Shown piece by piece: positions 1,721 to 5,590 of a stretch of 45,068 bases of DNA. The position numbers and the translations under genes were made by a program. The stretch comes from an uncultured Rivibacter sp. (GTDB lineage: Bacteria; Pseudomonadota; Gammaproteobacteria; Burkholderiales; Burkholderiaceae): positions 1-45,068 of the forward strand of contig CAMLNA010000018.1 in assembly GCA_946481025.1 (NCBI GenBank). The letters are read 5' to 3'. The notes under the pieces are model-generated. The model saw only the letters and a program-made list of their open reading frames with translations. It was not told the origin of the DNA and ran no database searches. The stretch's first letter is position 1, and each line of letters opens with the position of its first letter.

Positions 1721-1921
1721 TCAGCTCCCGCCCGATTCGCTGTAGTGCCGCCAGCGCTTCATCGCGGCTTCCATCGTGGCAAGCTGCCGCTCGAAACGCG
1801 GGCAGGCGTTGCAGGCCATGAGGTGCAGGCGCAGCGCGAGCCGTTCGACCCAGGGCAGCGCGCGGTCCTGGCGGCTGAGCAGGAGCGCAGCGGCTTCGCG
1901 GCATGTACGTCTGAGCCTCAT
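1721..1921 (-). CDS. small zinc-finger anti-sigma factor (zf-HC2 / ZAS type), soluble
   Basis: The protein has only 66 residues and starts MRLRRTCREAA. It carries Cys7 and the ZAS motif His33-x3-Cys37-x2-Cys40 (HLMACNAC), the zinc-binding signature of anti-sigma factors that clamp ECF sigma factors. There is no membrane span, so it should act in the cytoplasm, sensing metal or thiol state directly rather than an envelope signal (inference). Its ATG overlaps the sigma-factor stop codon (ATGA at 1918-1921), the usual translationally coupled sigma/anti-sigma layout. An upstream extension in the same frame is Arg-rich, overlaps the sigma gene and was rejected. Confidence 0.85.
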   Translation of the reverse strand: MRLRRTCREAAALLLSRQDRALPWVERLALRLHLMACNACPRFERQLATMEAAMKRWRHYSESGGS

Positions 1922-2505
1922 CGCACGCTTCCTTTTCTGGTGACGGCCGCGGCGGGTGCCTCTGCGAACCAGTTGAGCTGCAGGCATTCGCGCAGGCGCA
2001 GGCGCGCACGGTGCAGCATGACCCACAGGTTGGTCGGCGTCACGCTCAGTTCCTTACAGATCTCGTCGGTGTCGAGTTCCAGCCATTCACGCATCAGGAA
2101 CACCCGGCCCAGCTGGTTGGGCAGTTTCTCGGTGCAGGCCTCGATGACGGCCAGGAACTGATCCTGCCGCAGCGCCGCCTGAGGGTCGCCCCATTCGGCC
2201 GGCAGCTCGCGGAAATGGCCGTCCTCCTTGAACAGCAGGTCGAACTCGTCGCCCTCGGCGTCTTCGGCAGTGAGGGCGCATTCACGGGTGTGGCGCCGCA
2301 GCTGGTCGACCACCTTGTGCTTGAGGATGCCCACGAGCCACGTGCGCACCTGCGAGCGCCCGGCAAAGGCCTGCGGTTTTTCGAGCGCGGCGATGAGGGT
2401 CTCCGAGACCGCGTCTTCGGCCCAGGCGTCGTTGCGCAGCTGCAGCCGCGCGTAGCGCAGCAGGTGCAGCCGGTGGCTCTCGAGATCGACGGCGAGATCG
2501 TTCAT
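1918..2505 (-). CDS. ECF-family RNA polymerase sigma factor (RpoE-like)
   Basis: This 195-residue protein has the two ECF domains. Region 2 (about residues 8-75) includes RYARLQLRNDAWAEDAVSETL and WLVGILKHKVVDQLRR. Region 4 (about 120-175) has the helix-turn-helix segment ELDTDEICKELSVTPTNLWV followed by LHRARLRLRECL. I chose ATG 2505 because the sigma-2 domain starts at once (MNDLAVDLESHRLHLLRYA); the longer open frame upstream runs into the divergent promoter region and the signal-peptide gene. It is divergent from the DUF2282/DUF692 operon with 103 bases between starts. That operon is its likely target, along with its own promoter (inference from position and from related loci). Confidence 0.93.
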   Translation of the reverse strand: MNDLAVDLESHRLHLLRYARLQLRNDAWAEDAVSETLIAALEKPQAFAGRSQVRTWLVGILKHKVVDQLRRHTRECALTAEDAEGDEFDLLFKEDGHFRELPAEWGDPQAALRQDQFLAVIEACTEKLPNQLGRVFLMREWLELDTDEICKELSVTPTNLWVMLHRARLRLRECLQLNWFAEAPAAAVTRKGSVR

Positions 2506-2516
2506 TTGGGCGGCAG

Positions 2517-2546
2517 TGTAAGTAATCGACGGCACGGCGCGACACA
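2517..2546 (+). promoter_or_regulatory. candidate ECF-sigma promoter for the MNIO operon
   Basis: The 103-base divergent gap between the sigma gene and the DUF2282 gene contains TGTAAG (2517-2522), followed about 17-18 bases later by CGACAC (2540-2545). A GTAA-type -35 and a CG-rich -10 at such spacing resemble ECF promoters controlling DUF2282/DUF692 operons, such as the Caulobacter SigF type. No sigma70-like box stands out. A start near 2552 would leave a leader of about 57 bases before the strong Shine-Dalgarno AAAAGGAG (2595-2602). This is a pattern match only. Confidence 0.25.
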
Positions 2547-2608
2547 CGCTCGTCGCTGCAAGGTCTGCGGCGGCTCGTTTCGACAACGCACCCCAAAAGG
2601 AGCTCACC

Positions 2609-2896
2609 ATGAACCAACGCCTCGTCGTCTCTTCCGCCCTCGCTTCCGTGCTCGCCATGGGCCTCATCGGCGCCGCCGGTGCGGCCGACGACATGAAGCC
2701 GGCCGGCAAGGAGAAGTGCTACGGCATCGCCAAGGCCGGCCAGAACGACTGCGCCAACCTCGCGGGCACCCACTCGTGCGCCGGCCAGTCCAAGATGGAC
2801 AACGACCCGGGCGACTGGAAGTACGTGGCCAAGGGCACCTGCAAGCAGATGAACGGCATGTCGGCCGAAGAGGCCAAGATGAAGGCCAAGAAGTAG
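2609..2896 (+). CDS. bufA: DUF2282 / BufA-type RiPP precursor (bufferin-like, copper-associated)
   Basis: The 95-residue protein has a Sec signal peptide (residues 1-25, cleavage near AGA-ADD), so the mature peptide should work in the periplasm. The core has four cysteines in the family-typical settings EKCYG (Cys37), QNDC (Cys48), THSCAGQS (Cys57) and KGTC (Cys78), and ends in a Lys-rich tail ([10 protein letters not shown]). DUF2282 proteins with a DUF692 partner are now known as bufferins: ribosomal peptides whose cysteines are modified and which bind copper in the periplasm. A strong ribosome binding site (AAAAGGAG) fits high expression of a precursor. It is the first gene of a four-gene operon. 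Family assignment is firm; modification in this species is inferred. Confidence 0.9.
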
Positions 2897-2927
2897 GCCG
2901 GCCCTGAACGAAGCAGTGGCGGCCGAC

Positions 2928-3788
2928 ATGAGCTTCCCTCTCTCCACCGGTATCGGCTTTCGCCAGCCGCACTACCGCGAGCTGCTGGAGCGCAGGCCGC
3001 CGCTGGCTTTCCTCGAAGTGCATTCCGAGAACTTCTTTGCCGAGGGCGGCGCGGCGCTGGCCGTGCTGCATGAGGCCAGAAACCTCTATGACGTGAGCCT
3101 GCACGGCGTCGGCCTGGCGCTCGGTTCGGCCGCGGGGCTGGACTGCTGGCACCTCGAGCAGCTCGCGCGGCTGGTCGATCGCATCGAGCCGGTGCGGGTG
3201 AGCGACCACGCCTGCTTCGCGCGGGCGCCGGTGCGGGCCGGCACACCACCCACGCACGGCAACGACCTGCTGCCGGTCGCTTTCACGCCGGCCTCGCTGG
3301 ACATCATGGCGGCCAACGTGTCGGCGGTGCAGGACAGGCTCGGGCGCCCGATCCTGGTGGAGAACCTGTCGGCCTACCTGGGCTGGGCCGACGACTCGAT
3401 GAGCGAGCCCGAATTCTTCAACCTGCTGGCACGGCGCACCGGCTGCAGCCTGCTGCTGGACCTCAACAACATCGTGGTCAACCAGCTCAATGCGGGCGCC
3501 GGCGACCCGGTGGCCGCCGCGAAGCGCTTTGTCGATGCCATCGAAGCGCGGGCCGTCGGCGAGATCCACCTGGCCGGCTATGACGACAGCGGCGGGCTGG
3601 TGATCGACGACCACGGCAGCCGCGTGCATGCGCCGGTGTGGCAGGTGTTCGAGCATGCGATGCGCAGGCTGCGCGGTACGCCGGTGCTCATCGAGTGGGA
3701 CACCCGGCTGCCCGCGCTGGACGTGCTGCTCGGCGAGGCGGCCGCGGCCGAGGCCCGCTGCGCCGTCCGTGAAGAGGTTGCGGCATGA
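2928..3788 (+). CDS. bufB: DUF692 multinuclear non-heme iron oxidative enzyme (MNIO, BufB-type)
   Basis: This TIM-barrel enzyme of about 286 residues belongs to DUF692, which uses two or three iron ions and oxygen to modify cysteines of RiPP precursors. Metal-ligand segments appear in order: [56 protein letters not shown] and LIEWD. The start is uncertain between GTG 2916 (adds MAAD) and ATG 2928; I prefer ATG 2928, since family members begin close to GIGFRxxHYxELL. It lies 31 bases after the precursor gene and overlaps the next gene by ATGA (3785-3788). The likely substrate is the adjacent four-Cys peptide. Confidence 0.93.
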
Positions 3789-4582
3789 ACACCCGCGAGG
3801 CCACACGCCAGCAACTGCTGCTGCGCGCCATCGTGTCGCGCGGCGACGGCCTGGCGCTCAACGGCTGGGTGCGCGAAAGCGGCGCGCGCATGGGCAGGGG
3901 GCTGGCGGCCTACCAGGCCAACCTCGGCGCTGCAGCCGAACGTGCCCTGGCCGGCAGCTTCCCGACCGTGCAGCAGCTCCTGGGCGAGGAGTCGTTCGCT
4001 GCCATGGCCCGGGACTTCGTGCGCCGGCGCCCGCCCGCCCGGGGCGACCTCGCCTGGCTGGGCGAGTCGCTGCCGGCCTTCATCGCCGACACCGAAGGCC
4101 TGCGCAGCGAGCCCTACCTCGCCGACGTGGCCCGCCTTGAATGGGCGGTGCAACGCGCCGAAGCGGCCGCGGATGACGACGGCCCGCTCTGCGGGCTCGA
4201 GCAGCTCGCGGCGCATGAGCCGTCGCGGCTCGCCTTGCGGTTCAGGGCCGGCACGGGCATGGTGGCCTCGCCCTGGCCGGTGGCCGGCATCTGGCTGGCC
4301 CATCGCAGCGATGCGAGCGATCGCTTCGACGGACTGCGGGAAGCCTTTGCCGCCGGCCGCGGCGAGACGGCGCTGGTGTGGCGCCGGGGGTGGCGCGCAC
4401 AGGTGTGTGCGCTCGACGCGTCTGATGTGCCGTTCACCCGCGCGGCCTTCGAAGGCCGCGACCTGGCTGCCGCGCTCGATGCCGCCGGCAGCTCGTTCGC
4501 CTTCGACGCCTGGCTCGCGTGCGCGCTGCGCGAGGGCTGGATCGCGGGCATCGACCTCCTTTGCAACTCACCGGAGACCTGA
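3785..4582 (+). CDS. bufC: DUF2063 MNIO partner protein (BufC/HvfC-type)
   Basis: The 265-residue protein begins with a DUF2063 domain (about residues 8-105). Segments such as [33 protein letters not shown] and [25 protein letters not shown] are typical. The C-terminal half (about 120-265) is the less conserved part thought to act like a precursor-recognition domain. In characterised MNIO systems this protein binds the precursor and is needed for the enzyme to act on it. The start overlaps the DUF692 stop, so the two are translationally coupled, as expected for a heterodimer. Two stray cysteines occur near the C-terminal half, with no metal motif. Confidence 0.88.
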
Positions 4583-4584
4583 CC

Positions 4585-5052
4585 ATGCAAGCCGTTCGTC
4601 AACCCGCCTGGCAACGCCTCGAAGCGCTGTGGCAGCGCGCCGTGTCGGCGCTCGACGCGCTGCAGCCGGCCGCGCAGCTGGCTGCGCGCCTGTACGTGGC
4701 CAAGGTGTTCTTCCTCTCGGGCCTGACCAAGATCCGCGACTGGGAGACCACCCTCGCGCTCTTCACCGACGAATACCAGGTGCCGCTGCTGCCGCCCGAG
4801 CTGGCCGCGCCGCTGGGCACGGCGGGCGAGCTGGTGCTGCCGGTGCTGCTGGTGCTCGGCCTGGGCGGGCGTCTTGCAGCGGCCGGGTTGTTCGTGGTGA
4901 ACGTGGTGGCCGTCCTGAGCCTGGCCGAAATTGCCGAGGCGGCGCTGCAGCAGCACGTGTTCTGGGGCAGCCTGCTGCTGGGGCTCGTGCTGTGGGGGCC
5001 GGGCCGGTGGTCGGTCGACGCCTTCATCTGGCGCCGCGGCCCCCGGCAGTGA
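4585..5052 (+). CDS. DoxX-family membrane protein of the MNIO operon
   Basis: This 155-residue protein has four membrane spans (about residues 29-46, 66-90, 92-112, 118-138) and the DoxX hallmark RLYVAKVFFLSGLTKIRDW near the first span. DoxX proteins often end DUF2282-DUF692-DUF2063 operons; a redox or quinone-linked role is suggested for the family but not settled. ATG 4585 is preceded by GGAGA (4573-4577) and comes 2 bases after the DUF2063 stop. An in-frame upstream extension overlaps the DUF2063 gene and was not used. It probably serves maturation, export or redox supply for the modified peptide (inference). Confidence 0.88.
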   Translation: MQAVRQPAWQRLEALWQRAVSALDALQPAAQLAARLYVAKVFFLSGLTKIRDWETTLALFTDEYQVPLLPPELAAPLGTAGELVLPVLLVLGLGGRLAAAGLFVVNVVAVLSLAEIAEAALQQHVFWGSLLLGLVLWGPGRWSVDAFIWRRGPRQ

Positions 5053-5065
5053 CACACTGCGGGCC

Positions 5066-5590
5066 ATGCTGGAACACACACGCTTCATGGCCCGCTACAA
5101 CCGCTGGATGAACGAGCGGCTGTATGCCGCGGCGGCCAGCCTTTCGGACGAAGAACGCCGCCGCGACCGCGGCGCGTTTTTCGGCTCGATCCACGGCACG
5201 CTGGCGCACCTGGTGCTCGCCGACAAGATCTGGCTCGGGCGTTTTGCGCAGCAGGGCGTTCGTTTCGAGGCGCTTTCGGCCCCGGTGCTGGCCCGGCCGG
5301 ACTTCACCGGCCTCGACCAGGTGCTGTTCGACGATTTCGACGAGATGCGCTCGCACCGTGCCGAACTCGATGCCGCGATCGAGGCCTGGGCCGCCGAGAT
5401 GACGCCGGCCTACGTCCTGCAGACCATGCGCTATGCGAGCACGAAGGGCGCGCCGCGAGAACACCCGCTGTGGCAGGCACTGAGCCACTTCTTCAACCAC
5501 CAGACGCACCACCGCGGGCAGGTGAGCACGCTGCTCCTGCAGGCCGGCGTGGACCCGGGTGTGACGGACCTGATCGCCCTGGTGAAGTGA
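5066..5590 (+). CDS. DinB-family putative metal-dependent hydrolase/transferase
   Basis: The 174-residue protein is a four-helix DinB/YfiT-type domain. The family metal ligands are visible as His48 in HGTLAHLVLADKIW and the late pair in NHQTHHRGQVSTLL (about residues 138-146). DinB-fold proteins include thiol S-transferases and many of unknown activity, and DNA damage induction cannot be assumed. It starts 13 bases after the DoxX gene on the same strand, so it could be read through from the MNIO operon, but it is not a usual member of that operon. It ends 12 bases from the convergent tolA gene. Confidence 0.85.
   Translation: MLEHTRFMARYNRWMNERLYAAAASLSDEERRRDRGAFFGSIHGTLAHLVLADKIWLGRFAQQGVRFEALSAPVLARPDFTGLDQVLFDDFDEMRSHRAELDAAIEAWAAEMTPAYVLQTMRYASTKGAPREHPLWQALSHFFNHQTHHRGQVSTLLLQAGVDPGVTDLIALVK

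Follow-up and report, generated by a model that had tools for sequence, protein, structure and literature searches.

Genes of the locus and their conservation

Positions 1721 to 5052 of a window of 45,068 nucleotides (the whole stretch of DNA that was analysed) carry the genes of an extracytoplasmic function (ECF) sigma factor and a small anti-sigma factor and, divergent from both, a bufferin-type operon headed by a DUF2282 precursor gene. Here, we observe that the codons for the helix-turn-helix of the sigma factor also contain a putative promoter of the kind found before the bufferin operon, directed toward the anti-sigma gene. The following features were assigned to the stretch.

1721..1921, minus strand: small soluble anti-sigma factor of the zinc-binding anti-sigma (ZAS) type (zf-HC2), 66 aa; Pfam zf-HC2 28.2 bits over 22.2, E 2.1e-6; NCBIfam antisigmaE (NF052368) 67.7 bits versus a cut-off of 50
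1918..2505, minus strand: ECF sigma factor, 195 aa; Pfam Sigma70_r2 and r4_2; NCBIfam PRK12520 and TIGR02943 over cut-off
2033..2058, minus strand: embedded putative sigma-type promoter in the sigma gene, TGTAAG-N16-CGAC, codons 150-158, toward the anti-sigma gene; from motif match, synonymous shuffles and a synonymous-site scan
2515..2520, minus strand: TACACT, probably the housekeeping -10 of the sigma gene, with 9 bp to the sigma ATG; from enrichment upstream of sigma in relatives
2517..2543, plus strand: putative sigma-type promoter of the bufferin operon, TGTAAG-N17-CGAC; from motif match and conservation upstream of DUF2282
2609..2896, plus strand: DUF2282 (Buf1-type) precursor, 95 aa, with a signal peptide (by eye); Pfam DUF2282 91.2 bits, E 4e-26
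2916..3788, plus strand: DUF692/MNIO enzyme (MbnB_TglH_ChrH; BufB/GigA-like), GTG start or ATG at 2928; Pfam PF05114 295.6 bits, E 4e-88
3785..4582, plus strand: DUF2063 partner protein (BufC/GigB-like); Pfam PF09836 64.8 bits, E 9e-18
4585..5052, plus strand: DoxX membrane protein (GigT-like); Pfam PF07681 64.9 bits, E 1e-17

An earlier note on this DNA had named the ECF sigma, a 66-residue zinc-finger anti-sigma and the DUF2282, DUF692, DUF2063 and DoxX genes at these places, and the open reading frames (ORFs) as well as the Pfam searches agree with it. Both ATGA couplings it described are present: sigma stop and anti-sigma start overlap at 1918-1921, DUF692 stop and DUF2063 start at 3785-3788. 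As read from the sequence, the anti-sigma gene also has a Shine-Dalgarno-like stretch of its own, AAAGGAAG, at 1935-1928 on the minus strand.

The mature precursor has four Cys (residues 37, 48, 57 and 78), all of which are present in 53 of 53 aligned precursors. Such a four-Cys DUF2282 precursor with a signal peptide, adjoined by MNIO (PF05114), DUF2063 and DoxX genes, is what characterises Buf1 clusters. The DUF692 protein reaches 298.6 bits in the bufferin-maturase family MNIO_BufB of NCBIfam, near and below the equivalog line of 310, and aligns to the solved DUF692 protein 3bww. Judged by its sequence, the operon is a new member of the Buf1-type bufferin clusters with ordinary gene content, and the small peptide that it encodes is probably copper-binding; thiooxazoles would be formed in it by the MNIO enzyme. 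The six proteins are 92-98% identical to their counterparts in a Methylibium rhizosphaerae locus (L001), with 94% for the sigma factor, and the host organism is close to Methylibium.

Two samples of relatives were compared. The first comprises 80 loci, the best of 214 relatives from a species-genome search with the sigma; adding the window gives n = 81. These 80 loci were found by degenerate DNA patterns, including one for the peptide DTDEICKE, a bias that favours the residues C-K-E; the patterns were back-translated and hence favour neither Cys codon. The second sample came from a protein search of 60 genomes of the order and consists of 30 loci, one of which (L280) is the L001 locus again. 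Searches of plasmids gave only relatives below 60% identity, and one locus from these (L081), which came without annotation, was left out.

The anti-sigma gene adjoins the sigma gene in 80 of 80 loci by phmmer and in 79 of 80 by tblastn. In the fetched stretches of these loci we found DUF2282 in 52, MNIO in 51, DUF2063 in 50 and DoxX in 43, counts to be read as lower bounds, as some contigs end early. Given 80 related loci, the layout as seen in the sequences is beyond chance. A gene read as an ammonium transporter stands beside sigma in two loci without bufferin genes (L034/L035) and beyond the bufferin operon in two others (L070/L038), which suggests that the operon was gained or lost at one site beside a persisting sigma pair.

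All 81 aligned anti-sigmas, window included, share C7, H33, C37 and C40 in the ZAS pattern C-x25-H-x3-C-x2-C, and these residues would be expected to bind zinc. By eye the 66-aa protein has no hydrophobic span, in agreement with the absence of a transmembrane segment that defines ZAS proteins. No relative of it turned up among solved structures searched by sequence. On sequence grounds the anti-sigma is an MseR-like ZAS protein, not one of the NrsF type. The earlier note had singled out the dedicated soluble anti-sigma as the novel part of the system. We rejected this idea: the protein falls into an existing NCBIfam family (NF052368), its relatives stand beside sigma in all 80 loci, and MseR of Neisseria meningitidis has been tested genetically, with Cys4 and the ZAS Cys required and with MsrA/MsrB under control of the sigma factor (PMC2893595; cited papers are represented here and below by excerpts).

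Putative promoter motifs before the operon and within the sigma gene

Every one of the 53 bufferin loci (52 relatives and the window) has the motif GTAAG-N16/17-NGAC within about 300 bp upstream of the precursor gene, 35 of them in the CGAC form. Random 320-nt stretches of the same loci, with the true sites left in, match in 26 of 1040 cases (relaxed) and 20 of 1040 cases (CGAC). The 45 kb of the window hold two matches to GTAAGNAN{14,15}CGAC with 0.06 expected, and two were reached in 1 of 100 shuffles. One of them, 2518-2543 on the plus strand, precedes DUF2282, and the other occupies 2033-2057 on the sigma strand. Several comamonad-type loci have a redoxin (TlpA-like) gene between sigma and precursor, and the motif then stands before both genes. 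Together with the Pfam and NCBIfam families, the motif before 53 of 53 DUF2282 genes backs the proposal of the earlier note that this is a sigma-controlled bufferin operon of the Buf1 type.

On its own strand, the sigma gene is preceded by no sigma-type motif within 260 bp in any of the 80 relatives, and both window matches lie elsewhere. The sigma factor thus probably makes its own brake, not itself. Within the 130 bp upstream of sigma, 40 of 81 loci contain TACACT, a hexamer resembling a housekeeping -10; among random 145-nt stretches 5 of 1620 do. In the window, bases 2517-2520 belong both to this TACACT (2520-2515, minus strand) and to the bufferin -35. The sequence AGTGTAAG is present in 25 of the 31 loci with a bufferin motif no more than 120 bp from sigma and in 4 of the 22 others (Fisher p 1.3e-5); in these four (L003, L028, L032, L033) the start of sigma has clearly been misestimated. 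The 31 loci include six exceptions, and five of these, i.e., all but L063, have a separate TACACT closer to sigma. The sigma and bufferin promoters may therefore be mutually exclusive. A housekeeping promoter for sigma fits the RpoD dependence reported for rpoQ-rsqA of Cupriavidus metallidurans (PMC10304878).

The second window match falls within the codons for I-C-K-E-L-S-V-T-P-T-N of the helix-turn-helix, with 136 bp from its 5' end to the ATG of the anti-sigma gene. The strict motif is found at this place in 67 of 81 sigma genes (47 of 53 at loci with DUF2282, 20 of 28 at the others), at a median distance of 122 from the estimated anti-sigma start (range 101-183, 67 loci). When codons were shuffled synonymously within each gene (100 times), the motif appeared in a mean of 10.06 and a maximum of 16 of the 81 genes.

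We also scanned all sigma codons against the codon usage of each locus with two statistics, surprisal and shared third base. Codon 150 tops the surprisal, with the rare TGT in 73 of 81 genes (z 19.9; third-base z 1.6), while codon 157 tops the third-base share, with G in 79 of 81 (z 13.9; surprisal z -3.7). The residue at codon 157 varies (P, S, A, T, Q), yet the codon is CCG, TCG, GCG or ACG in 78 of 81 genes. Elsewhere in these genes TGC makes up 87% of the Cys codons, and G-ending codons account for 46% of Pro, 24% of Ser (TCG) and 28% of Ala. The two codons are 21 nt apart, which is the distance between -35 and -10. Codon 186 (11.6), which lies in the poorly aligned C-terminus, and codon 55 (8.5) were the runners-up in the scan. 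Codons 63 (CAC, 80 of 80) and 151 (AAG, 75 of 75) show no variation either, yet theirs is the common codon. An antisense match occurs in 26 of the 81 mechanically derived sigma ORFs. Most of these matches are probably the divergent bufferin promoter, as such ORFs begin upstream of the true start.

In the protein-search sample the ZAS pattern was found in the ORF read after sigma in 27 of 30 loci. The site was readable in 22 of these loci; TGT stands there in 19 and the complete motif in 11, at sigma identities down to 42-44%. Overall, the sequence comparison shows a constraint on the in-gene site at the level of DNA, and the site would act as a promoter.

A natural separation of the two codes is offered by three Paucibacter genomes (those of L018, L049 and L021), which each have a bufferin locus without an adjacent sigma gene (L149, L150, L151). 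L150 retains a decayed 3' remnant matching sigma residues 124-180 at 31% (E 0.001), and the motif is still inside it. Beside the anti-sigma genes of L149 and L151 no significant sigma remnant was detected; the motif lies roughly 60-120 bp before an anti-sigma gene that encodes all four ligand residues (C-x25-H-x3-C-x2-C). The sigma genes elsewhere in the same three genomes lack the in-gene motif and read TGC CAG or TGC CGG. Hence motif and anti-sigma stay together apart from the protein code.

Candidate regulon in relatives

The regulon was read from the genomes of relatives, not from the window's own. Pattern searches covered 42 genomes (12 + 10 + 20) with the reversed pattern as a control, which is not matched in composition; those of 12 and 20 genomes gave 42 matches versus 29 reversed and 73 versus 22, respectively. 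From the matches 80 regions were picked, and 30 further loci were read; many of these have no clear downstream gene or are intragenic. The families recurring behind the motif are six-Cys Buf2-like precursors, MsrP (Oxidored_molyb), redoxins, DUF1223 proteins (three), EgtD (Methyltransf_33, two) and EgtB-like proteins (DinB_2, two), together with MsrA (PMSR, one), MsrB (SelR, two) and an MsrQ-like protein (Ferric_reduct, one). One EgtB case (L139) is doubtful as it falls inside another long ORF. For MsrA, MsrB, MsrQ, EgtB, EgtD, DUF1223 and redoxin these are single or few pattern matches and not rates. Pfam was run on at least one member per family; the Buf2-like peptide gave no family, and the names EgtB, EgtD, MsrP, MsrQ and Buf2 are our reading.

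Rates could be given for two families, which were counted irrespective of the motif in 32 genomes. Buf2-like precursors gave 21 matches in 18 genomes, one of them weak and with an internal stop (L249), and an MNIO gene flanks 18 of the 21. The motif stands upstream of 14 of 21 in its strict and of 19 of 21 in its relaxed form, with 0 and 0 of 126 downstream blocks as control. For MsrP there are 36 matches in the 32 genomes; among the 30 examined, 5 have the strict and 27 the relaxed motif, against 0 and 1 of 210 blocks. In M. rhizosphaerae, the nearest relative of the window, the strict motif was matched at the in-gene site, before the bufferin operon and before an EgtB-like gene.

According to excerpts of a survey in Microbial Genomics, sigma genes occur in Buf1 clusters and none in Buf2 clusters (PMC12452194). 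Control in trans would explain why Buf2 clusters are reported without sigma genes, and the counts suggest that these clusters are run by the sigma factor of a Buf1 cluster. The genomes of L010 and L024 (G002 and G005) have sigma and anti-sigma despite no DUF2282 being found in them, and G002 has an EgtD-like gene behind a motif (L119). In one further locus (L183) the motif precedes another ECF sigma gene, SigK-like by eye, a hint of a sigma cascade.

Proposed circuit, known systems and alternatives

We consider it likely, on the strength of the sequence comparison, that a Buf1-type operon is switched here by a divergent ECF sigma factor under a soluble zinc anti-sigma, with an embedded, self-braking promoter. 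In resting cells, sigma and anti-sigma would be made from the housekeeping promoter whose -10 overlaps the bufferin -35, and the anti-sigma, held in shape by zinc on C7/H33/C37/C40, would silence sigma in the cytoplasm. Cu(I), another thiophilic metal or an oxidant may hit the Cys3His site and set sigma free. Free sigma would then read TGTAAG-N16/17-CGAC ahead of the bufferin genes. In relatives it would in addition act in trans on Buf2 bufferins and MsrP through the motif. The outcome would be periplasmic protection, in relatives including methionine repair. Sigma would also read the embedded promoter in its own helix-turn-helix codons and so refill the anti-sigma pool with no sigma made. As activation would yield the brake and no extra sigma, the response would terminate itself.

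A more specific form of this model holds somewhat better than even odds in our judgement. It says that the helix-turn-helix codons of the ECF sigma are a dual code, which also spells a promoter read by this sigma and yielding its inhibitor, and that the overlapping sigma and bufferin promoters make up a switch which, once on, can only brake itself. The arrangement would be conserved across Burkholderiales, including most loci without bufferin genes, with a regulon of Buf1 and Buf2 copper peptides, methionine-sulfoxide repair and probably ergothioneine synthesis.

Several observations weigh against these proposals. The in-gene motif is absent from 14 of 81 sigma genes. TGC is the sole difference in five of them, three of which are at bufferin loci (L013, L020, L063). 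None of DUF2282, MNIO, DUF2063 and DoxX was found in the fetched stretch of 28 of the 80 loci, and of seven genomes searched for DUF2282, two (those with L010 and L024), whose completeness is not established, gave none. As to the regulon, a looser pattern search of 10 genomes gave 63 matches versus 259 for the reversed pattern, a control ill-matched in composition, and the motif before MsrP is mostly the relaxed one, with T at the second base after GTAAG in most cases. In C. metallidurans, deletion of rpoQ raised gig expression in metal-treated cells (PMC10304878). MseR was unresponsive to peroxide, diamide and singlet oxygen (PMC2893595), and a thiol-oxidant signal is thus not established.

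Among described systems, gigPABT-rpoQ-rsqA of C. metallidurans is closest in layout: four genes in the same order, headed by a four-Cys precursor, diverge from an ECF sigma/anti-sigma pair (PMC12452194, PMC10304878), and gigPABT is induced by copper and gold (PMC10304878). RsqA is described as membrane-bound (PMC10304878), in contrast to the 66-aa soluble ZAS protein found here; RpoQ entered this comparison by description, not by sequence. Cupriavidus is also listed among the organisms with NrsF orthologues (PMC3511200), while the anti-sigma here is of the zf-HC2 kind. The earlier note had likened the locus to Caulobacter-type systems, and this stands for the operon: SigF-NrsF is likewise an ECF pair for DUF2282/DUF692 operons, and the SigF motif GTAACC-N16-CGAA resembles TGTAAG-N16/17-CGAC, from which its -35 and -10 differ by a base or two (PMC3511200). 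The likeness does not extend to the anti-sigma, as NrsF is a membrane protein, nor to the autoregulation of sigF (PMC3511200).

The Neisseria pair sigmaE-MseR (NMB2144-NMB2145) likewise consists of an ECF sigma with a soluble ZAS anti-sigma encoded immediately after it, and its operon includes a DoxX-like gene (PMC2893595). It forms one autoregulated operon (PMC2893595), whereas the genes here are divergent and a sigma-type motif precedes sigma in 0 of 80 relatives. The wiring has its best parallel in Corynebacterium glutamicum, where sigH harbours a SigH-dependent promoter that transcribes rshA alone, a device proposed to end the response (PMC3489674). SigH-RshA is an actinobacterial redox pair with another promoter sequence and without bufferins; the likeness is one of working and not of kinship. 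The corresponding layout of our locus, a promoter in the sigma gene before the anti-sigma gene, is read from sequence. An internal promoter of rseA in E. coli may be a further precedent. We take NMB2141-2143 of Neisseria to be DUF2282, DUF692 and DUF2063 genes. In the excerpts of PMC2893595 these three genes are called hypothetical.

The open-licence PMC literature searched yielded no account of a sigma gene with an internal promoter in such a system, nor, under that name, of a ZAS anti-sigma with a bufferin operon. Within this literature the wiring, rather than the gene content or the anti-sigma, appears to be the undescribed part. The earlier interpretation is thus supported in part, and the in-gene motif was absent from it. 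Bufferins are widespread (PMC12452194), and the literature searched says little on how their genes are controlled outside NrsF systems. The analysis yields a promoter sequence together with a predicted regulon, and the feedback site it proposes can be addressed by two silent base changes. It also offers a clean candidate for a regulatory site written in the codons of the very regulator that would read it, with natural deletions separating both codes.

Two alternatives concern the embedded site itself. The motif may be a by-product of the conserved helix-turn-helix sequence I-C-K-E-L-x-x-T-P-T-N, with no promoter at all. The site does lie in a conserved protein stretch, AAG is the common Lys codon anyway (82% elsewhere), and synonymous shuffling by itself puts the motif into about 10 of 81 genes. 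The Fitch count on the sigma tree gives 6 changes at codon 150, low but inside the range of the other two-fold columns (0-24); as a few other two-fold columns share this count, the test alone does not exclude relatedness, and it is the direction toward a rare codon that matters. Against a by-product stand the rare Cys codon in 73 of 81 genes and codon 157, which keeps CG as its last two bases through P, S, A and T in 78 of 81; moreover, L149 and L151 retain the motif before the anti-sigma gene with no detectable sigma remnant adjacent. We therefore regard a mere by-product as highly improbable. Somewhat less remote, and still quite unlikely, is an embedded promoter that is real and gives a short RNA or weak read-through, the anti-sigma coming mainly from the sigma transcript by translational coupling. 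The ATGA overlap of sigma and anti-sigma in the window is in agreement with this; on the other side, the Paucibacter loci have the motif directly before an anti-sigma gene without sigma, and the anti-sigma gene of the window has its own Shine-Dalgarno-like stretch.

The other two alternatives concern the operon and its peptide. Another copper regulator may be the main control of the bufferin operon, leaving the sigma pair as a minor or compensating input, as the rise of gig in metal-treated, rpoQ-deleted C. metallidurans would suggest (PMC10304878). This we hold to be very unlikely here, given the sigma motif before 53 of 53 DUF2282 genes; the membrane-bound RsqA described for C. metallidurans also marks that pair as one of another type (PMC10304878). 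A role of the DUF2282 peptide in the repair of oxidised methionine or thiols, with copper incidental, deserves slightly more weight, and we rate it as unlikely. It draws on the motif before MsrP (27 of 30, relaxed), on the single matches before MsrB, MsrA, EgtD/EgtB-like and redoxin genes in relatives, and on the control of MsrA/MsrB by the Neisseria sigma (PMC2893595). Bufferins are, however, reported to chelate copper (PMC12452194), and both gig (PMC10304878) and the GIG operon of Legionella respond to copper and gold. The self-braking sigma circuit remains our preferred explanation of the locus.

Three kinds of neighbouring genes were noted in addition. A DinB-family gene (PF05163, 103 bits; MST 26, just below cut-off) at 5066-5590 on the plus strand begins 13 bp past DoxX and is perhaps read with the operon, yet a relative of it occurs in only 2 of 80 loci (L001, L007). 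A pyroglutamyl peptidase gene (Peptidase_C15) at 1067-1717 on the plus strand runs toward the anti-sigma gene, the two stop codons being separated by 3 bp; its relatives occur in 13 of 80 loci, all 13 with DUF2282. Downstream of the anti-sigma gene, glycine-rich, RRM-like (RNA-binding) proteins, so read by eye, recur in the comamonad loci L015, L023, L024 and L034.

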